A DNA stretch of 64,000 nt from assembly GCA_948567375.1 (NCBI GenBank), contig OX419755.1, positions 50,672,291 through 50,736,290 on the forward strand, read 5' to 3'. This stretch comes from Lunularia cruciata (taxonomy: Eukaryota > Streptophyta > Marchantiopsida > Lunulariales > Lunulariaceae). The stretch's first letter is position 1. The number at the start of each line of letters is the position of its first letter. The translations under genes and the position numbers were made by a program. This document shows positions 3,107-49,265 of this stretch, piece by piece. A model generated the notes under the pieces. The model worked only from the letters and a program-made list of their open reading frames with translations, did no database searches and was not told the origin of the DNA.

Positions 3107-5900
3107 CTAGTCTTCCATTCTCCTATTTCTCTCCTTTGTCTTTACACAAGGAGTTTCTTTTCTAGTCTCATTTTGGAGTAAGGCACCTACTTCCTCCCTT
3201 ATTTCTGCAAGGAAACTTGCAAAAGAAGGCACACTTGAACCATCTTTCACACCTTTCTTAGGTTCAAATTCATCTAGAGAGTAATGATGTTGCTTCTTTA
3301 CCTTTGTTGTCTCCAATGAATTACTTTCCTTTCTCTTAAATATTCCCTTTCATCTTATCCTTCTAAATTTAGAATCCAAAAGGGAAAAGTCAAAGTACAT
3401 TATCTCTTTTTGTGACCTTTATTTGGATCTTGTTTCTACACATTGAACTTCCATATCTAGCCAATCTTCTTCCTCAAAGATAAAAGTAACGTTAGAGTCC
3501 AATTCTTCCAACATAATAAAGTGTACATTTGTATCTACCTTTGTGGAAATTGATGTCTATACAAATCTTACCAAGGCTTTTGGAGTTGGTGGTTGGGGAC
3601 AATTAGCAATAACATGCAGGAGCTCCTTATAGTTAGATCACAAGGGCATATAGCTAATCTACTTCCATGGCTCAATGCAATATGGTGAAGAATTTTTGGG
3701 AGCTCCATAATTATAGCAAGCTCTAAGAGTAGTATTTTTCCTAGCAGACATAATCTTCTTGGGTGGATCATATTGGCATGTTCTAGATTTATGTATCATG
3801 AAATATGGATTGTTGGTCTAAGCATGTGATTAGGAGTTTTGTGCATAGCAAAAATAGGTTCTTCTTCCTCTACATAATACTAGGGTCTTTACCACAAAGG
3901 AACCAAGTCCATTTGATGTACAAGATATGTTGGCCTACTAGATAAAAATTCTTTGTTGGCATGTCTAAGCTTACTATAATTGGTACACCAAATATTTTGG
4001 GCACGTGTAAGGAAGTGGTCATCTCTCTTCCTTTGTGCCAACCATTAGGACCTTGAAGTAAAACAAGTCTTTGATTAGCTCTTCCAATGTGGAATCCACC
4101 TTTGGTGGATTCCACAAGCCTTGCAAGCCTTCAGCCAAACTCTGAAGCCTTGCAAGCCTTCAGAGTTTGGTTTAACTTCTAAATTCTATGATCTTTTCCT
4201 TCTCATTTCCTTTCCTTTCTGCTTTAGAAAAAAATGAATGCAAAGGAGATAAATCAAAATTAGATGAATTTGAAAGTGAAATGAACCATCTTGGTGACTA
4301 ATGTTTTGACTTCTTAATCTTTGTTCCACCATCTTGAGATTGGTGAAATTTTGTTAAAGAATTTAATTTAGCTAATTCATATAACTCAATGGACTTGAAA
4401 ACTTTTACAAGGGTGTCATGAACTCTTTCCTTTGCAAAAATTCTCAAATCAATAGGTAATCCCCAAGGAACTAGGCAATAACTTAAGCATCAAAGTTATC
4501 TAGTGCATTAGCTTGCTTTGGTATTTTATTCAAAAAGGTATAAAACCTTTTTGTATGACCTCTCAACTTCTTATGCTTTCTTATATCTAGATTATTCAAG
4601 GTAGCCGATATATCGGATTCAAAAGCTAGTCCTAAAATCTCTTCAAGAAGTTGGCCTTAAGCAAATAGGTTGTTAGATTTGCTAAACTTTTTTAAACCTT
4701 GGCTCACATGAAAATACCAATTCCTTACCTTTTTATGTAATAGATTTGGAGAAATTTGCAATCAGTCCCATTAGGTTCTTCTTTATTGGCTGTTGAGATA
4801 ACTTCAGATTCTTTGCTTAACATATATGGATCCTCCTCTCTATCTTTTTTTTTTAATTTTAGGTATCCTTTGTGTGTAAATGGAGCAGGGGTGTTCATTG
4901 AAGGTGAAGGTACACTTGCACTTGTGGTAAAGATTGTCCTTGCAATTGAAATTGGGTCCTAGTGACAAAGATCCAATATGCAATAACGGTGTTCATCTGA
5001 ACTCTTGTTCTACAAAAGATGGTCAACTATCTGACTGTCTAACTTGGGTGAAAGGAGATCAAAAAACTCTTTCTCCCAACCATTCAACTCTAGGTTTTCT
5101 AGCTCTACCAAAAGCAAAGCTTCAATACCTTTCAAAAATTTGCCTTCCTTTGAGTTTTCCAGTTCAAGAGTTTCTTGGTATGTGCTTAGATGGACAATAT
5201 CACTTATAGCCAAGTCTCTTTGTGAGCTTGCTAAGATCTCATAAAGTCCCATGGTAGGCTTTAGCGCATTCTCTTTTTTGTATCAAGGATTGATGTCCTT
5301 TTGAAAGTTCAGGTCCACTATGTTTGATGCTCTGGTTCACAACTCAAAAGGATCTAGGGAAGGCTGACTAGTCTTTCCAAAAATATTCCTTGGTTGGAGA
5401 TCAATATACCTTTCAAGGATCCATTCTCCAAATCTAAAAGGTTAGTCATGAGATACTTGAAATCCTTGTTGGATATTAGTTGGTTAAGGTGGGCTTGAAT
5501 TAAAGTCCTCAGATATCGGGAAACCAACTCTTGGCAAAAAGAATTTGATGGAGTCAAGATACTTGGTGATAATAAACAAGTTCTTCCAAAGATTTTCCTC
5601 TAATAGTTGTCTTTGTTATGTTTCCAATTTTTCTTTAGGGATGTTAGTAGCTTCTTGATAAGTCTTTGCTCAATTTTTGTGAACTCCAAAACTTTTCTTT
5701 TATATTCCTCTTCAACCTTTCTTTCAGCCTTGACTCTAGCTTACCTTTCCTTTGCCTGATTTTGTGCCAAAAGGCATTTATCTCTAATTGTTAAAGGTGA
5801 TAGAGATGTCTTGGATCTGGTGTTTGTTCTCTTGACAACCTTCATTGCCAAACTCTTTATGTTACTTATATCTTACCACTTCCAAGGAATGTAGCCTTGG
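3107..5900 (-). pseudogene. Antisense gag-like relic with zinc knuckles
   Basis: Read on the minus strand, this stretch keeps fragments of a gag-like protein. Near 3945-4005 a decayed zinc knuckle is visible (W-C-T-N-Y-S-K-L-R-H-A-N-K-E-F, where the second and last Cys would be Y and F). Near 3590-3720 two more knuckle-like motifs are present (A-C-Y-N-Y-G ... S-P-Y-C, and K-E-L-L-H-V-I-A-N-C-P). Towards 5010-5250 and 5354-5557 the minus strand has open, charged, helix-like stretches. The order of the fragments is not that of one continuous frame. No protease, RT or integrase was recognised here, so the element type is unknown; a non-autonomous or gag-only LTR element is one possibility. Confidence 0.4.
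4088..4170. repeat. Two adjacent perfect hairpins
   Basis: The first inverted repeat has 13-bp perfect arms TGTGGAATCCACC (4088-4100) and GGTGGATTCCACA (4104-4116) around a 3-nt TTT loop. The second has 13-bp perfect arms CCAAACTCTGAAG (4135-4147) and CTTCAGAGTTTGG (4158-4170) around a 10-nt loop. They sit within otherwise decayed gag-like sequence. Confidence 0.85.
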
Positions 5901-29491: not shown

Positions 29492-30245
29492 TGTAATACT
29501 CCAAGGATAGGAGACCTGAATAGAAACACGCCATGAGAAACACAAAAGTTCACACAAAAACCTCTGATGCCCTAAAGGAGCACCTTCTCTTTATTATATA
29601 GACAAAAGGGATCTCCTCCAAGGAAGCTCCACCATAGGATTAGGCACATAGATAAGTGACATGTCAGCAAGCTCCATGCTTGGATTACTTACTTGGATGG
29701 GTGACATGTCGGTCCTGGTCCTATCTGGTTGGTCAAACAAGCTTTGACCGGAGGGAATATTTTAGGGAATCTTCTTATAGAAATCTCAGAATCAAGTGGG
29801 TGAGGTACTATTGGAAAGCTCTCAATGAGACAAACCAAGGGGGAAGCAATGGCAAGCCAAAACTTCATTAGGGAGGGATCAACACATTTTGAGGCCTAAT
29901 TCATCCGTTTAGACTTCCAAAATTGCCTTCAAAGATTTTAGGCATATTTTGATTCCTACTCTATTAGTAAAAGTTTCTTTTTGGTGATACCTCTATCTAA
30001 TCTATTTATTCCATCATGTGTAACATCCTTCCAGATGATACAAAACCAATTCTCACCTTTAAATCATATGTCTAGCTATTGGTTCTAAGGTTTTCAAGTC
30101 TATTTTGGTTTATGCCCTATTAGTAGAAGTACTCTTTTGGTGATAGTTCTATATGATCTATTTTGATCATCATGTATACAATCATTCAAGATGTTACCAA
30201 ACCAAGTTTCACATCTAGATCATATGGCTAGCTCTTGGTATTACA
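29492..30245 (-). repeat. 5' LTR of the minus-strand chromovirus
   Basis: A 754-bp LTR, on the plus strand from TGTAATACTCCAAGG to CTTGGTATTACA, with inverted termini TGTAATAC and GTATTACA. A sense-strand TATATAATAAAG near 29600 is the likely promoter. It differs from its partner at 25763 at many positions. Confidence 0.93.
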
Positions 30246-30529
30246 CACATGTTGCCTAAAATATGCTACAAAGTATGAGATTGAGAGTGGTACCCCTTGG
30301 CGCCTAACATGATAAGCTCTCGTGCACTCCCTAACAAATGTGTCAAACACCATGCCCATTGCTCCATATAACTCTAAGGCTAGAAGGACAAAGAGGTGAA
30401 ATTGATGCATGCCCTTATACATAAAGACCTTGCAACATGCTGTTGCACTCGCCACCCATCCAAGGGGATGGGTAATCACTCCCTCCAAAATTATATCATG
30501 TGTAGGATCTGTAACCACAACATCCGCTA
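30246..30529 (-). pseudogene. R1-e segment: nuclease-like C-terminal part
   Basis: The minus strand reads LEGVITHPLGWVASATACCK, then FHLFVLLALELYGAMGMVFD, then a basic stretch ending in ISYFVAYFRQHV. This follows a D-x-VVV-D-P-type stretch seen more clearly in R1-h (55586-55771, VADIVVVDPTLNAMSERVLT). Similar Asp/Glu-bearing segments after an RT resemble PD-(D/E)xK-like endonucleases, but no full catalytic set is demonstrable here. It is cut on both sides by later insertions. Confidence 0.55.
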
Positions 30530-30980
30530 TGTCACGCCATTTGTAGTGTCACATCTAGATTGCTCGGGCATTGGAGTTCCAGTGATAGTAGTTAGAGTTA
30601 TTTTAGCAGTTTCTCAAAGACTACTATCCTACGGTCAGATTTTGTGTTTGGGGTATTGACTTCATGGTGGGGCCCATCGTCACTTTGCACCTTTTGCACC
30701 GTCAAGTGTGCCGTTAGTAGAATTGTTAGGGTTTCAAACCTAGCTCAAGTCTAGGGGTATACTTTTGAAGTGCAGCTCTAGAGAGCTCACTTCTTTGATG
30801 TTGAGCCTTCGAGTTCCTGGCTATGGTGGATACAGGCCGGCGAGCGTCACTTGGATTCTCTTAGCTAGAGTGAGTGTGGCTTGACTGTAATCAGTACACA
30901 GTTGTTAGCAGTTTACAAAGTGACAAATCAAGTACTGATCTGAGCTGAGTTGAGTTAAGAGTGATAAACAATCTAATTAT
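30530..30980 (+). repeat. 5' LTR of copy B, lacking its last part
   Basis: Starts TGTCACGCC and matches block M of the 3' LTR (39894-40353) throughout. At 30980 it passes into unrelated sequence, whereas the 3' LTR continues with block X (about 105 bp). The end of the LTR, and probably the primer site, are therefore missing. No TGGTATCAGAGC-type primer site follows. Confidence 0.85.
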
Positions 30981-32414
30981 GTCAGAGAAGTGAAATCAGG
31001 GGGAAATCAAGTGCAAGAACTTTGAGTGTTGGTGGTATCTCCAAGCTCGGTGGATCGTTGATAGCTCGATTGAAGTTTAGTTTTTCCTTGGTGTGCAAAA
31101 GCTCATTGCTTGATGGAGATTTGGCCGTAAGGCAAAAGATGTGTGGAAGCGCTGGCCAATTCTCAAGCACAAAAGGAGCAAATTTTAGCAGTGGTTGTGA
31201 TTTTGAGCTCAAGAGGTGAAGGCAGGACCATTTTGTTGCTAGTTGGGCTCAGAAGGTAAAATTGAAGGTGGAGTTGTGAATAGATTCTCATGAATTTGTG
31301 ATTTGGAGAAACCCGTGTTTTCAATTTGGCTCGAGTGAAGAGTTAGCGGGGGATTTGGCGGTCAACCAACTTTAGGGTTTATGCTAGATTTTACGTCAAA
31401 TTTTGGCTGGATATTAGATCAGATTTTGGCCAAATTTGGAGGAATTTCACTGTTTGACTAGATTTGGAGGAGTCTTGCTAGTTTGGAGGAATTTTGCAAG
31501 TTTGGAGGAGTTTTGCAAAATTTTGGAGGAGGTTCAAAGTAGCAAGAAGAAAGGCCTCATTTGGCATTTAGAGGCTTTGAGGCATAGGGCTATGAGAGGC
31601 TACGAAGGGCCAACAAGCCAGCTTGTTGGCGTGTGGCTAGCAAGTTTAGAGTAGATCTTGGTCATTGGTTGGCAATATCGGCCCATCCTGCTAGATTGTA
31701 CACAACAAGTTTTGACCCCTAGATCTCTTGTTCCTAGATTGGTGCCCTAGCCAACTGGTCCACCCTCACTTGTTGTCCTAGTGATTGTGCCACTATTATC
31801 TATATACTTGTAGCTTTGGCTAGAAGAGATAGTTTGGTCCCATTCTTGCTGATCCTGGTAGCTTAGGACTTAGATACAAACTTTTCTTATGTCAAATACC
31901 AAATGGTGGCAAAGTCTGTCCCGTGTTGTTTTATGAGATGGAGGGTTTTTGTTTAAATTTCTTGTGATTGGATCCCCTCCATCCTCTACTTCTTGTTTGT
32001 GCACCACATTTGTGTAAGGTGCCCTAACTTTTGACCATTGATGCTCTGGTGTGCTCTCGGTAGTGAGATTGGAGTGATGACTAGGCAGACTACCTTTGTT
32101 TCTCTCCGATGAGGTAGGAAGTGATGACTTGCAGACCGTGAGAGTGCGTGTTGTGATGGCAGGTTACAGGTTGCACTTTCTCTTAGTGTAGTTATCTCGG
32201 TTAGAGTTACATTAGTGGGTGGTGCTTAGTTGGTATTGGCACTTGGTGGAGTACTTGTGGTTGCAGTTTGTGGTTCCGGTTTGTTGTTGTAGTTTGCGGT
32301 TGCGGTTACTTTGTCACGACAGAATTCTTTGGGGATTCTAGAGGAGATAGCCCTATAGTACGCAGTGGGTTTACTCAGAGTGGTACTTGGTATCAGCTTG
32401 TATCTCAAGTCCCA
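30981..32414 (+). other. Leader of copy B
   Basis: About 1.4 kb of untranslated leader without recognised domains. At 31434-31530 the motif TTTGGAGGA recurs five times, mostly alternating with TTTTGCAAG-like words. Gag begins after this. Confidence 0.5.
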
Positions 32415-33760
32415 ATGAGGGAGTAGATTGACTCTAAGTTGGAGTTTGACACAAGAGTTTATTCAATTGAGAGTGCACTTGGTATGTCCGCACCGTTGTT
32501 GTGGGATATGGACAAGATTTATGGAGCCTCCAAAGGCCCTAGGCGTTACTCTGGTACAATGGGTACCATTGAGTTGGATGACTTCATCCAAGAGTTTGAT
32601 AGTTGGTGTGATCTGCAGTAGATGCGGAACTCAACTTTATTTACACCCTTCATGGCATGGAAGGGGTTATTTCAGCATCTAGAGGATCCGCCGATGGATG
32701 ACTACCATAAGTTTAGGAGAGCTCATTTGGAGGAGATCAAGTTATGGAGACAACATTGGTCTCCGAACTATGTCTCTATCACTTTAGGTTTGGTGGCCAG
32801 GAGTAGATTGGCTATACCTACAAGTTCTAGCTCAAGTAGTGTTAGTGGAGCTAGTGGAGGTGCACTAGTTGGAGATAGTGCTACTACAAGTAGAGGTATC
32901 ACTGCAAGAGGTGGTATGGTACCAGGGTTTAACCCCATAATGGAGTTCTTCTAGTGTTTGAGGCAGAACTACCAAGGAGTGTGAATTGACAAGCTGAGAA
33001 GCTTGCAAGAGTTCCAATAGAAGGCTGGAGAGAGCCTACGCAAGGCATACACTTGCATGAAGCGGCTGATCAGTTTCACTCAAGGAGTTACTGAGGCCCA
33101 AGCAATCCAGTTTTGGTATGGGATACTACACAGACAGGGAATTGCAACATAGAGTTTGTGATGCTACGTTGTTACAGGCTACTTCACCTACTTTGGCAGT
33201 GGTCTTTGGTTTGGTTGAGCGTATTGAGCTCAACATGGTGGAGGAGAGGGTGGTGACTTCTAGATTTGGTAGGGAGACCTCATCCACGGCTGTGACTTCT
33301 TCTAGAGTGTAGCAAAGTGCACCACGCCTAGTTGGTTTTCAAGGACAGGATGGATAGCCTAGATCCTTTGTAGCGAGTGGAGGGCCTAGTGGAGTTAGAC
33401 CCTTGCATTCATTTTTGGGTCAACAGTAGCCAGTGAGTGGTGGTGTTGCTTGTTGGACTTGTGGTGGACCTCACCATTAGAGAGAGTGTACTCAAGATAG
33501 TGGACCTGATACTTTGGGTGCATCATAGCCAGCACAGAGGCAGTGCAAGCATTGCCACAGATTTGGTCACACTAATGACCTGTGTTTTGACCTACACCCG
33601 GAGTTACGGAGTGGTAGGCCTGCTATGGCAGGTAGTAGAGGAGCTCCAGTTCATGGAGGATGAGGTGGTAGACGTGGTGGTAGAGGATCTACACCTAGTA
33701 GGGGTGCAGTACCTACCCTTACTTCTGATACAGCTATGGCTACTTGGATTGAGTAGTTGG
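32415..33760 (+). pseudogene. Gag of copy B with two zinc knuckles
   Basis: A start codon at 32415 opens the frame, with a TAG three codons later. Recognisable parts are MEFDTRVYSIESALGMSAPL (32439 on), SWCDLQ at 32605-32622 followed by TAG, and a helical stretch at 33000-33110. The two nucleocapsid knuckles are C-W-T-C-G-G-P-H-H-x-R-E-C at 33451-33489 (x is a TAG stop) and C-K-H-C-H-R-F-G-H-T-N-D-L-C at 33544-33585. A Gly/Arg-rich tail follows. Gag packages the element RNA. Frame breaks are numerous. Confidence 0.85.
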
Positions 33761-34159
33761 AACAGAGATTGCTAGTATGGCCATTGCTCAGAGGAGATCA
33801 GATTTGGGTGCTGAGGCTTCCACCTCAGATGCTGGTGATAGAGATGCTTTGGACTTAATGTGCGGAGTAGCACAAGTAGATGCATCTATAGCTATGACTA
33901 GGAGTGCAGTACGTGCTCTAGAGCCTAGAGGAGCATCAGTGGAGTTGGACCCATAGAGAGGAGAGGTTGGGAGATAAATCAAACTTCCTCAATCTTTCAC
34001 ACTATCTGAGGCATTGCAAACAACATCCATGGTTCCTAGACGTCCTAGTGCAGGCATGGTAGGTGGTGATGGAGTGCATGATGGACTACTTGCTAGTCAA
34101 CCACCTGTTATTATATAGACTGAGTTTAGCATTATGTTAGGGGTGGCTCATCTGATTAT

Positions 34160-34890
34160 GCGGTGTCCTTTGTTGCTAGTGACATGTTTACATTAGGAGT
34201 TGACCCAGCCCTAGTGTTCTTATTGGCTATCACGCTGTGTGAGAGTAGGGATGATGCAGTTCCTACTACTAGAGCAAAGGTGGTTGGTAGAGGAGCTGAC
34301 TTGGTTGAGGAGCATGGGATCCGTTCAGCGACCAATGGTTTATGGCAAGTAGCAACGGCTAGACTGGAGGAGTTGCTAACTAGACCGGCCTTTGAGAGAG
34401 CACAGTTCACACCTAGTGTTGTCCTATTGGATAACCATAGGGGGATTTTCCATTTGGTGGGACCTTTAGGAAAGGTCTATACACCATATAGAGTCTTGTT
34501 AGACTCTGGTGTGTAGCCTCTTATGTTGGGGAAGGCTACAGTTGTCAGTCTGGAGTTACGGAAGACCAATGTGGAGAGGTGTCCATTTCAAATTTAGACA
34601 TCTATAGGTGGTGGTTCGACATAGTACATCACACGTGGAGAGCTTGTTGTCCATGTTCAACCTGGTCATCCGATTGATAGCCCGGTGGTGAGAGCTCAGG
34701 CTATTGTGACAATAGCTAAGTCATATGATGTGCTAGTTGGGGGAGTAGTGTTATACCCCATGGGTTTTAGTATTGACTATTGGGAGGAGACAACATCCTA
34801 TAGACCAGGTTGGTAGTCTGGTGAGGGACGGATATATTGCCTACCAGTACGCTTTAGTAGTGGTAGTCTTGGCTCACTATAGTCCAGGAC
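34160..34890 (+). pseudogene. Aspartic protease of copy B
   Basis: The frame from 34163 reads through a 117-codon piece that ends with VYTPYRVLLDSGV at about 34477-34515, the retropepsin active-site triplet Asp-Ser-Gly. Downstream pieces are PLMLGKATVV, then ITRGELVVHVQPGHPIDSPV, then SYDVLVGGVVLYPMGFSIDY up to about 34780. TAG stops interrupt it after the active site, at 34514-34516, 34597-34599 and 34622-34624. It would process the polyprotein. Confidence 0.8.
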
Positions 34891-34891
34891 C

Positions 34892-36250
34892 ATGGCAACA
34901 TCAATTTTAGCTTTCAATGGTGCAATTACTTGGCTTGGTTACTTGTTGGAGAGGAATGCTGATGTAGAGGATACTCCAATACCAAAGGAGATTGCTCGGA
35001 TTTGGAGTACGAGTGGGATTATTCCATCCACCTTGGATGTTCCATTGTGGAGTTCAGAGGAGGCATTGCAGTAGCATGCAAATTAGTTGGTGCAGTAGGC
35101 TTGGAGTAGAGCCTTTGTACTATCAAGAGATGAGTGTGAGGATGAGCCTCCAGAGTCAATTACTTTGACACCTCTGGATACCACACTCATTGCTTGGTAG
35201 TATCTAGTAGAGGAGATATGTCTATTGGAGTTATTTGGTGGGATTAGCACCGGACTAGTTGCGGTATTACAAGCAAGTATATGAGTACAGAGGTACTTTA
35301 TGTTGAGAGAGATGAGAATACTAGGCAAGTCTCTCTACATCATGTGGCACACTTGGCTTATTGATATCCAAAGTTATTACCAATGTCAGCAGTCATAGGT
35401 TACCAGAAGGCCCTACCAGCAGACATTTCCTTACTAAAGGCGCATGATCTGGAGAGACATGTGCCTATTCACTTGGTGATTTTTGGATAGCCATATTAGG
35501 GACACACACATGTTGGTAGAGGTTTGGGTCTTCAGAATCCTCATTTTGGTTTGTTCTAGGAGATGTTATGGATACTACTACATCTGTAGGTTCATCAGTC
35601 CATTTCTCCAACTTACTTTTTGGAGAACATTCCGTTGATGGGTGATTCTCGCACTAGAGTGATGGCGAGTATTCATCATGTCCATTCTTGGATGGGACCT
35701 ACTGTATTGTTAGATGCTGCCAGAGTGGGATCACTAGCTCATTATCTTTGTCTTTGGTGGACAAACCTCTTACCCAGAGAGGTTCTAAAGCGTGCTTATG
35801 ATGGGATTCAACGACTTGACTACATCCTTGTTGATGATATCTTCGATGCTGGGCGTCAATCTCAGACAATGGTAGTGGCTAATAGGTCACCTATGGCAGT
35901 GGTGAACCTAGTTGGACAGTCTAGAGCCACATTTCCCACACTCATGAGTTTCCCAAGCTCTCATGCTTTTTGAGAAGGAGGACCTGGACTTGTTTGGGAC
36001 TCATAGTTACATCAATTGGTGGAGCCCAACATTGATGAGAGAGAGCATGCAATGGGTTTTTGCACCGGTATTACCACTATTCCAACAATGTTAGAGGCAT
36101 CCAAGCGTCAGGTGTTAGGTCAAGCTATGGACCTAAACTGTTTGACCTGGATTGTGAGCCTTGGCTTGGCAAAGCAACGTAGGATGTGCTTGATAGGTAT
36201 CACCACTATGACACTTGTGAGCCCTGTGTCTATCAAGACGATTTAGGCAC
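34892..36250 (+). pseudogene. C5-cytosine DNA methyltransferase domain inside the retrotransposon
   Basis: Transfers a methyl group from S-adenosylmethionine to cytosine C5 when intact. A linker (34892-35215) precedes the domain. Motif I reads LLELFGGISTGLVAVLQA (from 35222) and binds the cofactor. The motif IV site is at 35485-35505: Phe-Gly-stop-Pro-Tyr-stop-Gly-His, with the catalytic Cys codon reading TAT (35494-35496) and the next codon TAG. Motif VI is Glu-Asn-Ile-Pro at 35623-35634. Then LLDAARVGSLAH, WWTNLLPREVLKRAYDG (35710-35800), and motifs IX/X with EREHAMGF and LGQAMDLNCLTWIVSLGLA (36040-36170). Position between protease and RT, in the same orientation and codon style, shows it is part of the element. 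In-frame stops are TAG and TGA only. A frameshift lies just after motif I, near 35300. Confidence 0.88.
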
Positions 36251-37515
36251 ATGTTGGGAGCAATGGATCGAGTGGACATGGTATTCTTGGGACACAACCA
36301 ATAGCTACTAGGGAGAGTGATCTACTTGGAGTCCACCCAAGTGAGCGTGGGCTACTAAGATTACACCCTTGGTCCACTTGGGATGCAGCTAGAGGACATG
36401 TGGAGCATGCAACCAAAGTGGAAAGAGTTTTTTACATAGAGGTTGGGACCTCTAGTGGTTAGGAGCATGACACTATTGCTCCCAAGGGCCTAGTGTAGGA
36501 GCCAATCAGGACGTCTTCCACTCCTACTACAGTTACAGAGGATACTTGGGAGCCAAATCTTGGACCCAAGCTTACTAGAGAGGAAGACGGAGGGTTTGGA
36601 GGTTCTTGAGGAGCCACACAAGTTGTTTTGCCTTCAGTATGAATGATTTGGGTGCTCTAAAGGGACTTGGTATACGGATTGAGCTGACTAGCAATACACC
36701 AATTTTTTGATGTCCTTATCAATATAGTGAGATAGAGAGTACATTGATTCAGAGCCGGAGTAGTGACCTTTTTAAGGCTGGTTTGGTGGAGATTTCACAT
36801 GGAGAGTATGCATCAGCGATAATGATGCCGGTAGAAAGGATATGCATGGCAACTACATAGAAAGGTAGATGTGTGGAGATTATTGTCCTATCAACCAATA
36901 GACCAAGGCTGATCAATATGCCATGCCTACACCGGAGGAGATTTTTGATGCAAATGGGCATGCAAAGGTCTTCAATACTTTGGATCTTTGAGCGGGATAT
37001 CATCAGTTGCTAATCAAGGAGGAGGATAAGTCCAAGATAGAATTTTGGACTATTGATCCTCACGGCAAGGATGTGTTATATCAGTGGAGGTTCTTACTGC
37101 TTGGGTTAAAGAATGCTCCTCCTGAGTTCCAGAGGGTCATGGATAGGATCCTAGCTGGATTGGATTTGCTTGGTGTTACATTGATGGCATTTTGGTCTAT
37201 AGCACTACTGTGGAGGAGCATGAGAGGCAGTTGTTGGAGGTGTTTGAGAGGTTGAGATCTCATGGACTCAAATTACATCCTAGGAAGTGTAGGTTCTTCC
37301 ACGAGCAGGTTGAGTATTTGGGTCACACTATCTACCTCGGAGGACTTGGTGTTCAGCATACCAAGGTGGAGGTTATTGCACGTATTCTTTGGCCTACGGA
37401 TGTGAGCAGAGTGCGAGTTATCCTTGGGTTGGCAAACTTCTATTGCCGTTATGTTAGAGGATTTAGTGTCATTTTTAGGGCCTTGACAAAGCTGACCATG
37501 CTTACATAAGAGTAG
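36251..37515 (+). pseudogene. Reverse transcriptase of copy B
   Basis: A linker (36251-36640) leads into the RT. Visible blocks are LFKAGLVEISHGEYAS (near 36765), the LDLRAGYHQL-type region near 36980-37010, KDVLYQWRFLLLGLKNAPPEFQRVMDRILAGLDL (split by no stop, 37040-37170), and the palm box C-Y-I-D-G at 37174-37188, where the family has Y-I-D-D. Then HGLKLHPRKCRFFHEQVEYLGHT and the thumb (VILGLANFYCRYVRGFS, up to about 37480). The catalytic change and several frameshifts make it inactive. Copies RNA into DNA in intact relatives. Confidence 0.9.
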
Positions 37516-37985
37516 TGTGTTGGGGAGATGAGCAGGAGAGAGCTTTTGTAGAGCTCAAGGAGAGGTTGACATCTGCTCCTATTTTGAGGAGACCAATCAA
37601 AGGACTACCATTTTGAGTTCATATTGATTGGAGTATGTTGGAGCATGGAGCGGTGCTCACCTAGCATGATGATGAGGGGAAGGAGTTTGTGGTGGCCTAT
37701 GCTAGTCGCTACAACAATTTAGCAGAGGCAAAGTATAGTTCATATGAGGGAGAGTGCTTGGTAGTAGTTTGTTTAGTAGCACATTTCCAATGTTACCTAT
37801 TTGGTAACTCTTTCACTCTCATCATTGAGCATCAGCCACTGAAGTGGTTGATGGAGTCAGACAAGCTACCAAGGAAGCTTACACGATGGGCTCTGATTTT
37901 ATAGGAGTATGATTTCACAATTGTTCACAAACCTGGAGTGGTGAATCGTGATGCAGATGGGTTGAGTAGAAACCCATGTCTCAGC
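37516..37985 (+). pseudogene. RNase H of copy B
   Basis: Follows RT directly. Recognisable are a VHIDWS segment near 37620, VAYASRYNNLAEAKYSSYEGE at 37692-37754, then IIEHQPLKWLMESDKLPRKL (37825 on), and VVNRDADGLSRNP near 37938-37976. The third acidic position (family T-D-H-Q) reads Glu. RNase H removes the RNA strand during reverse transcription. Confidence 0.88.
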
Positions 37986-38261
37986 CAGCAAGATCAGATC
38001 GGAGCACATTGGCATGGTGAGACAAATGAAGAGATGGTGCCAGGTTGGCATGCATCGGCCAATCTGTGTATATTTTTAGAGGCTTTGCTGGTATCTCTCT
38101 CAGTGCATACAGGAGGAGTTATTGAGGCCATAGATCCAAAGAGTGAAGATATTGGTACCGTTCAACAAGACATTCATGATGATGTCTTAGTGATAGACTA
38201 TCTTTGCACTGGTGTTGTGGGTGGCACAATTGGAGCCAAGGCAAGAGACCGTGTTCTTTAG

Positions 38262-39204
38262 CAAGCCAAATGGTTCAGATTGGAAGGCATACACCTTTTG
38301 CATGTATGGGAGGATGGTAGAGTGCAAGTAGTACCACTTCCATCTAAGAGACCATAGTTGGTCCGTCATGCTCATGAGGAGCTATGCCATTTTGGAGTAA
38401 AGCGTACATATAGCTTACTCCAGAGTCATTATTGGTGGCGCAATATGCAGACCATGGTACAGTAGTTTGTTGCTAGATGTGTGGTTTGTGACCAAGTTAG
38501 AGCATCATTCAATGCTCCTACGCCATAGTTATACCCATTACCTATCATGGGATTGGGTTACCATTAGATTTTGGACTTTGCTGGACCTTTACTGCTGATT
38601 GTGAGACATCATTGGTATGTTTTGGTGATGGTGGAGCACTTCTCCAAGTGGATTGAGTTGGTGGCACTTCCTGATAAGTCTAGTGAAGGGACAGCTTACT
38701 CGTTCCTGGATCAAGTTCTTAGTCATTTTGGTGCACCAGTTGAGGTTTTGATTGATCAGGGTACAGAGTTCTTGGGGGAGTTTAAGGTCTTGTGTGACAA
38801 GGCTTTGATTGATCATTGTACTACATCCCAAGATCACCTGAGGCAGATGGCTTAGCAGAGAGAGTGGTTCAAACGGTGAAGAGAGGATTATGAAAGTATG
38901 GTTTGCAGAGAGGCCACTTTGGAAATAGGGATCTCCAACTACCTTGGTTGGCCATGGGCTATCGATTCAGCTGGCAAGCCTCCTTAGCATCCTTCTCTTC
39001 ATACTTTCTACTCTATGGACAAGATCTAGATTTACTTGCAGCCATTCGTCAAGATGTTATTGTAGTTTTGGACTTGGATGACCCCAATGTATGGATAAGC
39101 GCATGTTCTCAACGGGCAGAGATCTTTCGGAGAGTGATGCCGATGGCCTTTGAGAACTTGGCGATTGCTCAACATAGAGATACTTTATGCTATGCTACCA
39201 TTTG
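38262..39204 (+). pseudogene. Integrase of copy B
   Basis: A zinc-binding HHCC part (HAHEELCHFGVKRTYSLL, ARCVVCDQVRA) lies at 38365-38510. The catalytic core has the first Asp at 38574-38576 (DFAGPLLL), the second at 38754-38756 (LIDQGTEFLG) and the Glu at 38858-38860, so all three DDE residues survive in this copy. A one-base loss near 38835 shifts the frame before the Glu. The C-terminal part at 38946-39204 matches copy A. TAG stops at 38259, 38354, 38462, 38526 and 38565 (approximate starts) and a TGA near 38890 interrupt it. Confidence 0.9.
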
Positions 39205-39610
39205 AGGAGGAGGTTATAGATCCTTGATCCATCGATTTCATCTAGGAAACTATGTATATCTATAGCAGATAGCATCGACGACACTTGATGTTTTGACAAG
39301 CCGCACTATCTTGAGAGTGCATGAGGTTTTGTCATATGGAGTCCTTGTGTTAGAAGGATGTGATGGTGTTATTTGGAAGGATCATGTGCGCAATTGTGCA
39401 CCATGCCACCTCCCAAACATTAATGGTATTATGGACCCAAGGTTGGCACTTGTATGTGCAAGCTTGAGGTGTATGTTATGTGGCTCTTTTGGTGGAGCTA
39501 CTACTATGTTTGTGTGTGATATTTGTTTGAGAGGATGGCATATTGCATGTATGACTCCTCCCCTCATGGTGATTCTTCAGGAACAGTGGTTATGTCCTAG
39601 ATGTACTTGA
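39205..39610 (+). pseudogene. GPY-like module and terminal PHD finger of copy B
   Basis: A short basic module (ILRVHEVLSYGVLVLEG, then APCHLPNINGIMDP) at 39293-39455 is followed by a complete PHD-type ligand set at about 39469-39607: C-M-L-C, C-D-I-C, W-H-I-A-C and C-P-R-C, spaced C-x2-C-x11-C-x2-C-x4-H-x2-C-x14-C-x2-C. PHD fingers usually read histone H3 tails. Here it takes the place at the polyprotein end that a chromodomain holds in chromoviruses. A TAG stop precedes the module near 39264. Reader function is inferred from the fold family only. Confidence 0.88.
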
Positions 39611-39773
39611 CATATAGCTAGTTCATTCTTTGTATAGACTACAGACAGGCAACTAACGATGGGGCTCCATAGCACCCGGCCTTCTGATCTTTGCACATTA
39701 TAGGGTATACCATATACTTAGAGTAGATGGCTATTTGGAGTTAGAGTGACCTAACCGCCAGCTAGGAGGGCAA

Positions 39774-40459
39774 TTGTGGCACTTTAGAGTCTATGTATGA
39801 CTTATGTGTGAGTTGTGCTTCTATAGTGTATGATGTTGACAGCGATGTATGTTTTGTAATGATATATATATATGCATGATAGCCATCATGCTATTTGTAG
39901 TGTCGTATCTAGATTGCTCAAACACTAGAGTTCCAATGATAGTAGTTAGAGTTATTTTAGCAGTTTCTCAACAACTACTTTTTGACGGTCAGATTTTGTG
40001 TTTGTGGTATTGACTTCATGGTGGGGCACACCATCACTTTGCACCATTTGCACCGTCAAGTGTGCCAACAATGGGACCATTAGGGTTTCAAACTTAGCTC
40101 AAGTCCAGGGGTATAATTTCAAAGTGCAGCTCTAGAGAGCTCACTTCTCTGATGTTGAGCCTTCGAGTTCTTGGCTATGGTGGACAGAGGCCTGTGAGCA
40201 TCACCTGGATTCTTTAAGCTAGAGTGGGTGTGGCTTGACTGTAATCAGTGCCCAGTTGTTAGCAGTTTATAGAGTGATAGATCAAGTACTGATCTGAGTT
40301 GAGTTGAGTTGAGTTGAATTGAGTTGAGTTGAGAGTGGTAAACAATCTGATTATTGTGGTCCTTTAGAATCTATGTATGACTTATGTGTGAGTTGTGCTT
40401 CTATATTGTATGATGTTGATAGCCATGTATGTTGTGTAGCAATTTATATAAGCATGACA
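39774..40459 (+). repeat. 3' LTR of copy B preceded by an extra X block
   Basis: X (39774-39893), M (39894-40353) and X again (40354-40459). The LTR proper is taken as M plus the second X because the element's left end begins at M (TGTCA) and its right end is the second X (TGACA), next to GCTA repeats of the target. A GAGTT-type pentamer run lies at about 40299-40335. Confidence 0.8.
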
Positions 40460-40463
40460 GCTA

Positions 40464-43400
40464 CTATCACCTGATCATCTCGGACCAAGTATAAATTTGA
40501 CCTAACAAAGCATATGCTAGTGTCATCTACAAAGCATACAAATGCTCTCTCCAAGCCAAGTATCCACTCTCTTGTTCCATACCAAACATTATGTCCCTAA
40601 TAGCATCATGGGTAGCTATCCTTTGTCCTCCAAAAGGACACCATGTCATATGGACTGTTGTTGCATCTAGTATAGAACCACATTCACAAGTGAGTAATGA
40701 AGATGTAGATGGGTGGACCAAACCTAGGCAAAACCTCATCGCTGTAGAGAAAGTAGCTGGTGCAAGTCAGAACGCCCTAATGCATTGTTGAGCTAGGATC
40801 CAAGAGCATGCACCCTTGCCGGATCAAGAGCAAAGATGTGCTCTAGTAGCCTGAGGAATGGACAAGTCAACTAAGAGAGAATGTAGCATATGCTCACATT
40901 ATCGCTCCATCAAGGAAGATTATAAACCTCTAGTCCAATCTGACAATAGTGAAGAAAAAAATGGAAAGTCCTCTTGTGCCCGTGATGAAAGACTATCTCT
41001 CATCTGCCATAGTAACATCTGGAGAGAATAAGATCTCTCTTCCATCTTTGCCACATAAGTCTCCAAAATTGGCCTATCAACAACCACAAAACAAGAGGAA
41101 AGTAGAAGTGTCGTGAGAGGTCAAATACCCAAAAATGCTATAGGTGTCGTCTCCTCCATAGATAGCAAGCCAACCCCTCAACATGAGATTGGCAAAGCAG
41201 TCTGTCTACGTGCCAAATCCCTTGTCACACACTCAAAAGTCCTTGTTCCAATAATATCACCAAAGACTCCCATAATCTTCCTATCAAAGGCTCTCAAACA
41301 TGATAGGAAGGACAAGGAGAGGAGAACTATGTGAAGGAGGTATGTTGGTTGACGAGCAATACTTGAGGAGAGTAAACCAAATGCCACTTATGGATCTCCT
41401 AATAATGGAAGGCATCTACATGGAGAACATCCTCTTCAAAAGCAGCATCTAAGAAGCATGTGAAAAAATCCTTGGATCTTACCGGCACTCCAAGAACACA
41501 TAGTCCATTTGTAGCTGTGATACACCCCTCTAGAAGCTCAAGGTAGGGAGGGATACCTAAAGGGGACCATGCCCTGCACTTTAACACCTTGATGCTCAAG
41601 CCAACTAGATATAGCTTGGTAATCAAGTGATCAAAGACCTACCTAATCTGATCTATAGGGCCCACAATGTGTGTATCATCTGCCAAGGAGGGAAATACAC
41701 AACCTGGCATGGCCAAAGTAGTAGATAGGGGAGCTCTAAAGTGAACCATGGCAAATAAGGGTCCCCCTACAAGATCTCCCTTATGTGTACTATAACACCC
41801 ATTTGTGCATGGTGTGGTATTGTGATATTTAGCTTGGTATTACAAGTACTTGAGAGATATTATTTATATAGATAAAGGATGGTTCTACATTATTCATGAT
41901 TAGCTAAAGTTAGTCATAGCTAAGATATAAGGGACCTTACTTTAAAGGAAGTTGAAAAGATGAGCACTACTATTTTGGATTCTAGTGTGTTGACTTGGTA
42001 TTATTCTTAGGTGTTTGGCTTTGAGAAAAGAGTTGAGAACTCTTGAGCCGGCAAGCCTCTTTGTTTTGGATTCTTCTATAGTCCAAGGATACCCCATGTG
42101 AAGGAATCCTTGACTTAATTGTTGGGTCAAGATAAGATTACATGCTTAGTAGAATATGCCCGTGTGAATGGATATTCATTAATACTTTTTAGCTTCACTT
42201 GACTTTTAGCCTAGTAACTTGAGTTATTATGGTAAATAATAACTTTAATGCGTAAATATTTCACAAGTTTGTGAACTAGGGGTGAGGAGGTACTCATCAT
42301 CCTTTCATTTGCAACTATCTCTCTCTCATTGAGTTCTCTAGTGAGCAATGTCTTGAGTCTTGGAGTGTTAGCCTTGGAGGAGTATGATGGAGTTGGGGTT
42401 CCTTGCCTTCTTAGTCCATGGTGAGCTACCATAATAGCCATCAGAGGTTCATCCTTAGTGAGAGACAAGCCGGCTCATAGTACCAATAGCTGACTCCAAG
42501 ACGGAGACTCCTTCTTGTGAACAACCATGTTGGTAGTACATGGAAGCAGGAGAGCGATAAAAATACCGCACAAAAGGAATAAGACTTTCCAATGATCCAC
42601 CAGCCTCCCTAAGCTCTCTAAAGATGGATGCATGTGATACATTATTAAAAGTGTTCTCAACATCCACTTGTAGGACGACCCACTCCGGATGGATATCTAG
42701 GAGTGCTCTAATGCCTAGAAATATAACCTCACATCCTCCAAGTGTAACCACTCCAAATTGATGTGGATTGAGGTGTTGTCAAAAGTGAGAATGGTGCTAA
42801 AGGACAATGGTATGACTGACCAAACGCAAAAAGATCTCTCCAATAGCAATCGGTCTAATGCGCCTCATGTCCTTTTCCATTGCAAGAAGTTGACTAACAC
42901 CTAACACCTGACTAACAGACATAGGAATGTCTCCTTTTGTTACTACTATAACCACCTAAAACAACTCAATAAAACCATTAGAAGGATCATCTACTTGAAA
43001 GCAATCTCTAAGGTGCTCATAAACTATCCCTAACAAGCCACCTTATGAAAGGTGATGGGCAATGTATAGTGCTTGTGCAAAAAGTGAATTATCAAGACAT
43101 AAAGGCTACTCTAGCTGATACTCTAAGACCTCTAGTGGTAGTCACTCTATTTCCATAAGATGTAGTGAGCGTAGGGAAGAGATATTCTCATCAGTAGGAC
43201 TAGCCATAGACAAAGGATGTATTGCTTGTGCTGCTCTACTAAACTCTCTCGCTTGACCTATTGTCCTACACCATTGTAATTGAGTGGACACTGTGGTATC
43301 CCATGGCAAAACTTATCTCCTAAAGCGTGTAGCCCTAACAAGCTCCTCCTAAAGGGTCACCCAATCTCCCACTCAAAATCAATGAAATCTAGCACCCACC

Positions 43401-47375: not shown

Positions 47376-49265
47376 AGAAGTATGATTTTACAATTATTTG
47401 AAAACTTAGAGTAGTGACCTTGACGCATATAGATTGAGTAAAATTCATCTACTATCTAACATCATAAGACAAAACTCATATGCATGGTGAGACTAGTGGG
47501 GAGATCATGCAAAACTTACAAGCAATTGTAATTTTATTTGATTAAGGCTCAAGTAGAATGATATCAATGCAATGTAAATTTTAAGCCCTTAGATCCAAAA
47601 GGTAGATATGATCATATTTGACAAGTTAGCAGAAAATCCATGCTTACATCTTCATGCTTGTATTGTGGTTGGTTTACCTGGTGCAAACTAGAGAGATTAT
47701 ATCCTTTTAACCAGCAAGGAGATTCAAACTCAATGGTAAATGCATTTTTTGCATAGAAAAGGATAGTAAAACACAAGTAGTACTATGTCTCAAAATGTAT
47801 AATGGATATGTATTCTCATGAGGATTTGGGACAATTGGAGTCTAGGGGAGTATAGCTTACTTTAGAGTTTGTATTTTTTGTGTAGTATATAGATTGATGT
47901 ATCTCACACCTCTAGCAATCTCACTTCATTATTTCTTACTACATGCATGAGGCTCAAATTTAATTATATTTATTTGACATAATTTTAGTATGGATTTGGA
48001 CCTAGAGGATTCATATGTGTAGGTTAGAGCATGTTCTCAAAGAAAAAAGGTCTTTCAGAATAATGTCAATAACATTTGAAAACTTAGCAATTTGTCAACA
48101 TAAAAACATTATCAATATGCTATTGTTTGAAGTATAATTTATAGACCATGGATGTATGGGTTTTATCTTATATCTCATGTTTTATATCATATGCATGATA
48201 TGAGTTTGTAGCATTGAGATTGCAAATAATAATAAATATCTTAAGGATCTATGAGGTTTTTCTTTCTAGACTTCTCATATTAGAGAGATATAATTGTGGT
48301 ATGTGGAAGGACCAAATTCAATATTATGCACCATACTGCCTTGCAAACCTTGATAACACTATGAATCTAAGCTTAAAGATTATATGCATCGCTTAATCTT
48401 ATAAAGAAAATCACAAACTTCAATACCTTATGGGTGTCTATGAGGTTCTTTTTCCAAGAATTCTCATCTAGGAGAGAGATATTGTGTTATTTGGAAGGAC
48501 CATATTCAAAATTATGCACCATACTACCTTCCAAAACTTGATAGCACTATGAATCTAAGCTTAACAATTATATGCATCTCTTTCTAGTTAAAAAGAATAT
48601 CACAAACTTGGAGTAGATGGCTACTTGGAGTTAGGTGAACCTAATTTCAAGGCAAGGATGGTACTTTAGAGTTGTACATAACTTTATATAAATATTGCAG
48701 TTGTACAATATTAACAATCATGTATCTTTTGTAATGATATATATCTACACAAGCTAAGTATTACATCATTTATAATGCCTTATTTATTTTGTTAAGACAC
48801 ATTTATTTTACCTTATGTTAATAGCTCTTAATAGAACACCTAGTTGTGGTTATCTACGTCATTAAGGTATCCTCTAGTACCATTAAGGTACCTCTTAGTA
48901 CCATTAAGGTACCTCTTAGTACCATAAGATCATCATTTATTATTAAGATGGTTGAGTATGCTATTAGAGCAAGATATTCTAGTCTCCTCAAGTAAGTGCT
49001 AGACTTTAAGTTAGAACCTCAAAGAGCTACATTTTATGAGTAGAGCCTTTGTGCTCTTGGCTATGGTCAAAGAAAGCCTATCAATGTAACTTGGAGACTC
49101 TTATATTAGAGTGGGTTTTATTGATTTAATTGTGATTTTTAATTGGTAAATTTATATAAAAGTGATTTTGATTATGTTACTTTAAATTTGGCACATGAAA
49201 TTTTTTTGTGAGTTGTGTTTACAAATTTATGATAGTTTTAGTAATGTATATATGCATCTTAATCC
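47376..49265 (+). pseudogene. Old copy of the methyltransferase/PHD gypsy, 3' part (copy C)
   Basis: A strongly AT-shifted relative of 37900-40459. Order: RNase H end (TATGATTTTACAATT, 47384 on), a remnant of the linker, the integrase C-terminal tail (48000-48130), the GPY-like module (48230-48385) and a second, tandem copy of that module (48432-48590). Then comes the X-M-X LTR arrangement (about 48655-49265). The PHD-coding part is not present after either module copy. Most of the middle of the integrase is missing or unrecognisable. It shows that the family has been in this genome for a long time. Confidence 0.75.
48861..48923. repeat. 21-bp tandem repeat, three units
   Basis: Three adjacent units share ATTAAGGTA and CTAGTACC or TTAGTACC; the last two are identical. 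It lies within block M of copy C. Confidence 0.85.

Follow-up and report, generated by a model that had tools for sequence, protein, structure and literature searches.

A high-copy Ty3/gypsy-type retrotransposon family of the liverwort Lunularia cruciata with a predicted DNMT3-type methyltransferase domain

Plants silence transposons through DNA methylation, and an abundant land-plant transposon in which a methyltransferase of its own is conserved to about the same degree as the reverse transcriptase (RT) would reverse the usual arms race. The question is raised by a 64,000-nucleotide stretch of the Lunularia cruciata genome (contig C1, 50672291-50736290; hereafter the window), in which an initial annotation had seen a cytosine-5 methyltransferase domain within a gypsy element: does a land-plant gypsy family encode such an enzyme, and does it extend or merely parallel the charophyte case? 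We report that the first claim, including the extension, holds for the family and not for the copy in the window. The family is real, well conserved and abundant, and the function of its methyltransferase (DNMT) domain is predicted. What is chiefly new is its occurrence in land plants, a UAG codon placing the DNMT on the Gag side, and a history that DNMT and RT appear to have mostly in common, the DNMT having shifted position once.

Linde et al. ascribe to Ty3/Gypsy bursts the genome size of Lunularia, twice that of its kin, a matter on which the present family bears; the word 'methyltransferase' is absent from their main text (PMC9985172). A gypsy polyprotein with a DNMT3 domain, KnitGypsy-Dnmt3, has been described in the main text on Klebsormidium nitens (de Mendoza et al. 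2018, PMC5890265). Passages of PMC12344493, citing the 2018 work, place DNMT3 within retrotransposons (LTR Copia, DIRS) of streptophytes and dinoflagellates, while a passage of PMC6338049 states that land plants such as tracheophytes lack DNMT-bearing elements. Passages of PMC10952607 and PMC13182070 do not mention such elements, and nothing in the open-licence PMC literature covered (titles, starts of abstracts and main-text passages) was recognised as describing gypsy elements with a DNMT from bryophytes.

The window copy and its family

The genome searched comprises 565.77 Mb in 74 contigs, among them a plastid contig with matK and, as judged by eye, chlB and psbA. Pfam PF00145 served to find all 24 sister loci (L005-L028), which are therefore no unbiased sample; L009-L028 were picked mostly for long frames, and L001-L004 were omitted from the set as host genes. 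The limits of the parts of the window copy, a gypsy-type element of 9.93 kb on the plus strand (30530-40459), were mapped by tblastn with pieces of sister copies (Table 1).

Table 1. Parts of the element in the window (window positions; percentages are identities)
Feature	Position	Strand	Basis
Left target-site duplication GCTA, 4 bp	30526..30529	.	sequence; second copy at 40460-40463
Left terminal repeat unit B1, about 449 bp, begins TGTCAC	30530..30979	+	blastn with L026 unit B, 88%
Gag remnant	32604..33414	+	tblastn with P0001 piece, 83-85%, 2 pieces
Gag CCHC zinc knuckles (nucleocapsid)	33418..33654	+	tblastn 87%
Retropepsin region (LDSG)	34283..34912	+	tblastn 83%
Linker, protease-DNMT	34913..35197	+	tblastn 78%
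Decayed DNMT3-type cytosine-5 methyltransferase domain	35201..36216	+	tblastn 80-82%; class via sister copies and relatives
Motif IV site, stop-Pro-Tyr-stop (sister loci: Trp-Pro-Cys)	35488..35499	+	sequence
Post-DNMT linker, ORF1 end	36217..36495	+	tblastn 77%
TAG between ORF1 and ORF2, then GAGCCA in the window copy	36496..36498	+	sequence; TAG in 25/25 copies
Reverse transcriptase	36714..37518	+	tblastn 76-83%, 3 pieces; Pfam RVT_1 in 37147-37509
RNase H	37521..37970	+	tblastn 84%
Integrase: zinc-binding, core and C-terminal part	38274..39424	+	tblastn 83-87%
PHD finger, integrase end	39425..39607	+	tblastn 77%; Pfam PF00628, 34 bits, in 39266-39610
Unit A1, 106 bp, right end repeated internally	39774..39879	+	blastn 88% to A2
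Unit B2, left end repeated internally (approximate outer limits)	39882..40353	+	blastn 88% over 39886-40312
Unit A2, element right end, ends GACA	40354..40459	+	repeat comparison
Right target-site duplication GCTA, 4 bp	40460..40463	.	sequence

The methyltransferase motifs read by the initial annotation, motif I (LLELFGGISTGL), ENIP, EREHAMGF and LGQAMDLNCLTW, are all found in the window frames, and its placing of the domain between protease and RT was right. The DNMT domain of a sister copy matches the window in two pieces (E 2e-160 and 1e-10); these E-values and the sister loci rule out a chance match of motifs. Part of the extent that had been given to the domain, 34892-35197, is the protease end and a linker, the methyltransferase itself starting near 35201. 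PF00145 matches the open frame of a sister copy (P0001) with a modest 30.5 bits against a cut-off of 22, and the window pieces 35590-35973 and 36010-36210 gave no Pfam match. Motif IV, taken to be intact, is destroyed in the window, although W-P-C stands in 24/24 sister loci. That the domain landed in the window copy alone, as a chimeric insertion, is scarcely conceivable: all 24 sister loci carry it, though all were found through the domain itself, as do 40 scored genomic places at 99-100% identity and elements of other species.

A genome search with 1361 bases of the DNMT gave at least 40 places at 99-100% identity (of 5520 first-look candidates), and a 26-base word after the stop codon that ends ORF1 occurs at 3442 sites with at most 3 mismatches, against none in a reversed control. 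Counted as full copies, these sites would come to about 34 Mb or 6% of the genome, an order of size only, many sites being partial copies and older copies being missed. From the best matches 19 end pairs were retrieved, and in 14 of these the divergence between the two B repeats is 0.7-2.0%. The long frames of the sister copies read Gag-CCHC-protease-DNMT (ORF1, up to 1428 aa) and RT-RNase H-integrase-PHD finger (ORF2, 966-1037 aa). The Pfam order in P0002 (ORF2), RVT_1, RT_RNaseH, Integrase_H2C2 and rve, is that of gypsy elements; ORF1 has an LDSG motif, and the Pfam scan of P0001 (ORF1) gave no protease match. We conclude that the family is a high-copy, autonomous Ty3/gypsy-type retrotransposon of which the window copy is a decayed member. 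RT of the copia type is also very abundant in this genome (PF07727 search; at least 150 loci, of 5513 candidates), with some open frames exceeding 1400 aa.

Chromoviruses are gypsy elements with a chromodomain on the integrase. The liverwort family likewise has a chromatin reader at the integrase C-terminus, but it is a PHD finger that stands where chromoviruses have the chromodomain: the Pfam scan of P0002 gave a PHD finger after the integrase and no chromodomain.

The ends are split direct repeats, and standard LTRs are ruled out, two full-length identical LTRs being absent. On the left a single unit B (449 bp) leads directly into the internal part, and the right side reads A (106 bp), GC, B, A, so that the inner A-GC-B is the right element end joined to the left end (GACA-GC-TGTC). 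Among 19 end pairs, from the 40 places matched at 99-100% identity, left B is present in 18 and the right-side A-B-A in 14 (13 with left B); one pair has A-B only (L031/L032), one a single A, and three have no right repeat within the fetched stretch. Elements have TG...CA ends and a short target-site duplication, including the window copy (exact GCTA); both ends could be read in 13 sister copies, of which 11 have an exact 4-bp duplication and two one that matches at 3 of 4 bp. Split direct repeats are the layout of DIRS-like elements, from which the liverwort family differs in having a DDE integrase and no tyrosine recombinase; no recombinase family was matched at E <= 0.01 in P0001 or P0002 (Pfam), and the rve core is present. 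At L049/L050 (contig C2, near 70829006-70840306) the single A is followed by an exact 4-bp duplication, without B2-A2, possibly an alternative end product of the replication cycle.

Read in the frames of sister copy L014, the window copy is interrupted by 46 nonsense codons (CAG to TAG in 26 cases) and by 11 indels, 10 of which change the frame; its catalytic Cys has become Tyr. Because of this damage the window copy is dead and unable to make methyltransferase. Its B1 and B2 units differ at 58/450 aligned sites (K2P 0.142). When the flanks 29529-30529 and 40464-41464 are joined without the element, a 144-residue open frame on the minus strand crosses the site, and the insertion thus seems to have interrupted another frame. 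Beside the left end (29922-30233) lies a 156-base unit in two tandem copies that are 74% alike. The window also holds, at 3-1623, the right end of a second family copy, cut by the window start (integrase end and A-B-A repeats, with a PHD finger 92% identical) and, at 47888-48542, diverged integrase C-terminal-like fragments of a more distant relative (31-52% identity).

With L010 assumed to be the younger copy, which sets the direction of decay, C to T changes in the window copy amount to 146/492 (29.7%) at CG, 236/876 (26.9%) at CHG and 173/2847 (6.1%) at CHH sites; among CHG sites CAG and CTG reach 28-30% and CCG 17%, and A/T transitions 2.5%. The corresponding figures are 5.6% (CG), 4.5% (CHG) and 0.5% (CHH) in the 14 young end pairs, and the B1/B2 pair of the window gives a weaker contrast (7/14, 9/32 and 29/147). 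This excess at CG and CHG indicates that copies of the family have been methylated there, as host MET1/CMT would do, and host enzymes acting alone would be expected to leave the same pattern. One could also see in it self-restraint, the element's own methyltransferase marking new copies for silencing and limiting activity or damage, so that the host, and thereby the element, benefits. The heavy decay, which implies that the window copy was methylated at some time, and the purifying selection on the DNMT discussed below would fit, but the 3442 junction-word sites and the low B-repeat divergence of the 14 best-match end pairs point to bursts and not restraint, and the decay may be host work alone; we consider self-restraint unlikely. 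The initial annotation also raised concealment of the element's copies and an influence on host methylation as possible roles of the enzyme.

Class and conservation of the methyltransferase domain

In the alignment the motifs run from I to X, unrearranged. Motifs IX-X stand after motif I, unlike in the rearranged DRM, which rules out the DRM class. A single-sequence search of solved structures gave DNMT3A as the best match (31.9 bits, E 2.4e-7), and a nine-row profile gave DNMT3A 75.6 bits (E 3e-20), followed by 4onj (40.9), HhaI (38.4), DRM2 (36.4), HaeIII (30) and Dnmt2 (26); structures named DNMT1 or CMT were absent at E <= 0.01 from this profile search. The entry 4onj, titled DNA methyltransferase, is presumably tobacco DRM. 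With DNMT3A leading the profile search, an origin from DRM or from bacteria is ruled out, and on these comparisons the domain is a DNMT3-type cytosine-5 methyltransferase of predicted activity. The host genome itself has a DNMT3-like exon (L001, contig C7:31989837), a DRM exon with rearranged motif order (L002, contig C1:48270096) and a CMT-like exon (L003, contig C8:50013591), the class of the last being judged by eye.

Is the domain still a DNA methyltransferase? It might instead have become a structural binder of cDNA or RNA, or methylate RNA. Glu replaces the Pro before the catalytic Cys in relatives P0030, P0037, P0047 and P0049, and the Klebsormidium gypsy enzyme gave no methylation in yeast, a result that its authors judged inconclusive in the main text of PMC5890265, where SymbioDIRS-Dnmt3 of dinoflagellates is described as producing de novo CG methylation in yeast. 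Against this stand the catalytic Cys, present in every sister locus and, among relatives, in 134 of 138 aligned rows, and motifs I, VI, VIII, IX and X, retained in the sister loci with scattered single changes. We regard a loss of DNA methylation as decidedly improbable. In the DNMT piece of the Volvox protein P0223 the catalytic column holds a residue other than Cys.

Best identities to 20 Marchantia proteins are 75% for the DNMT, 77% for RT and 82% for RNase H, against 66% for Gag, 61% for the protease, 49% for the protease-DNMT linker and 32% for the post-DNMT part. Nonsynonymous and synonymous changes (N/S) were counted over 24 copies after exclusion of stops and of C/T changes in CG and CHG contexts, and five tests were made. 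For the DNMT the counts are 8/16 for shared and 54/28 for singleton changes (Fisher p 0.0086), leaving out 2 shared and 2 singleton stops; the loci had been chosen by their DNMT match, which may soften the DNMT singletons. The protease gave 2/12 against 33/7 (p 1e-5), and RT, RNase H and integrase together p 0.03. RT alone (7/7 against 28/15, p 0.36) was not significant, nor were the two linkers (5/5 against 34/10, p 0.12), whose ratio is like that of the DNMT. These counts and identities show purifying selection on the DNMT, which is about as conserved as RT.

The UAG codon between the two frames

A TAG separates DNMT and RT in 25/25 copies (24 sister loci and the window), after which ORF2 continues in frame with ORF1 (e.g. 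L013, L014). Genome-wide, 801 sites have the exact downstream 26-mer, and the preceding codon is TAG in 786; the remaining 15 have another T-codon (11; TAA and TTG among those listed), AAG (3) or CAG (1). The UAG thus did not arise through copy-by-copy decay, being present at 786/801 sites and in otherwise open copies. It is followed by CAGCCA in 21/25 copies, and 23/25 fit CAR YYA, six bases described as essential for readthrough in tobacco mosaic virus (TMV) in passages of PMC2754532. The same passages describe rice gypsy readthrough candidates which, like TMV and the liverwort family, have two frames split by a presumed readthrough stop; the CAR YYA context is common to TMV and the liverwort family, which differs from both in carrying a DNMT.

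We infer from the codon and its TMV-type context that the UAG is read through to give Gag-Pol. Folding of the 101 bases downstream of the stop codon, done for two copies, gave RNA structure no better than that of shuffled sequences (z -0.3). Among relatives, P0175-P0178 are ORF2-like proteins of 1033-1083 aa, separate from ORF1, and P0186, in which DNMT and RT share one frame without a stop, counts against the readthrough model.

Relatives, ancestry and a model

Protein searches, each scoring about 8000 candidates, gave 50, 144 (best 120 listed) and 352 (best 120 listed) relatives. A Marchantia polymorpha relative is 72% identical in the DNMT region, and Marchantia-named proteins make up 14 of the 50 relatives in one search. 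Also among the matches listed are M. paleacea, Riccia sorocarpa and Calypogeia fissa, the peat mosses Sphagnum fallax, S. troendelagicum, S. jensenii and S. tenellum, and Closterium, Klebsormidium nitens (integrase-PHD, P0179), Volvox reticuliferus and V. africanus; the label Chrzof1 we take to be Chromochloris. With relatives in liverworts and peat mosses, the DNMT-gypsy design first reported from algae is also present in land plants. A count of the zinc pattern gave 95 of 116. A search of viral contigs gave 3 pattern matches, with no relative among them. Two Volvox proteins, P0223 and P0256, have an integrase together with a PHD finger.

For the trees, proteins were sampled by length cuts, 60 of 172 for the DNMT, 132 of 288 for the integrase and 28 of 288 plus the own element for DNMT/RT, and we chose the roots, DRM for the 60-DNMT tree and group C for the integrase and DNMT/RT trees. 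FastTree placed the 60 retro-DNMTs, analysed with 5 short host/PDB fragments, in one clade (SH support 0.86) adjoining the host DNMT3 exon, a host comparison of short exons only. The integrase tree (132 proteins, rooted with P0049, P0051 and P0052) joined the own element to Klebsormidium P0179 (support 0.85 inside 0.95), a partial protein, so that the comparison covers the integrase-PHD region only. All 20 proteins with the DNMT after RNase H fell in the other large clade (85 proteins, including Volvox), and the six with the DNMT before RT comprised three with the own element and three of the root group. The 'after RNase H' group was recovered in both the DNMT and the RT tree (22/22; ultrafast bootstrap 99 and 89), as was the 'before RT' group without the root group (4/4; 100 and 100). 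DNMT and RT distances correlate (28 proteins plus the own element; Mantel r 0.848, a value reached in 0 of 2000 permutations), and within the groups the branching order is not the same throughout. As the main groups agree, the DNMT appears mostly to have travelled with its RT, with one change of place on the sampled trees. Closterium P0098, basal to the 'after RNase H' group in the 60-DNMT tree, is labelled PF14223, presumably a copia-type gag family; its position beside the other gypsy group suggests that the DNMT may have moved between element classes.

The family resembles KnitGypsy-Dnmt3 in several respects. The main text of PMC5890265 describes a non-rearranged DNMT3 under purifying selection, as in the liverwort family, and the legend of its Fig. 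4 describes DIRS retrotransposon-like repeats with Gypsy-typical domains, the split-repeat layout found here; the Klebsormidium integrase-PHD protein also groups with the liverwort family. The two differ in host (a land plant against K. nitens), in the place of the DNMT (ORF1 before the UAG against the Pol ORF, according to that text) and in copies, with 3442 junction sites in Lunularia and, in K. nitens, fewer than in Symbiodinium; PHD is a word that the main text of PMC5890265 never uses. SymbioDIRS-Dnmt3, described there too, is likewise a retroelement-borne DNMT3 but belongs to another element class, having a tyrosine recombinase in place of the DDE integrase of the liverwort family. What suggests kinship with the Klebsormidium element is one incomplete protein, covering integrase and PHD finger, together with the legend in PMC5890265. 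On the second question left by the initial annotation, a mere parallel seems less likely than shared ancestry, given the integrase grouping, the like end structure reported and the agreement of DNMT and RT trees.

Independent uptake of DNMT3 by bryophyte, Klebsormidium and other algal elements, or horizontal transfer into bryophyte elements, strikes us as rather doubtful, if less so than the alternatives weighed above. The main text of PMC5890265 concluded that acquisition in K. nitens was independent of that in dinoflagellates, the DNMT stands at two different positions in the two main clades, the host-gene comparison rests on short exons, and P0098 may belong to another element class. Set against these points are the single retro-DNMT clade among 60 domains, the concordance of the DNMT and RT trees in their main groups, and the PHD finger held in common, to which the K. 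nitens figure legend adds the split repeats.

We favour, at a probability of roughly 55%, a model in which an autonomous family makes its DNMT at Gag level via a leaky UAG, methylates its own copies, is targeted by its PHD finger and shares an ancestor with the Klebsormidium element. Readthrough of the UAG would set the ratio of Gag-Pro-DNMT to Gag-Pol, so that the methyltransferase would be produced at the level of the capsid protein and packed into the particle. There it might methylate the new cDNA de novo, or else the freshly inserted copy, while the PHD finger of the integrase would read the H3 tail and steer insertion. Host maintenance enzymes could then keep CG and CHG methylation, visible as deamination decay, and the design would be inherited from the common ancestor. 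A wider reading, which we hold only tentatively, is that one ancient DNMT3 capture was kept in algae, mosses and liverworts with a single relocation, from before RT (bryophytes and the Klebsormidium clade) to between RNase H and integrase (the Volvox clade) or the reverse. Leaky-UAG packaging would then load many methyltransferases into each particle and deliver the cDNA pre-methylated to a site chosen by the PHD finger, and the family would have helped to double the Lunularia genome.

The role of the domain is testable, since Marchantia, a tractable model, has relatives of the family. The name of relative P0175 is that of a transcript assembly, a hint of expression in some relative.
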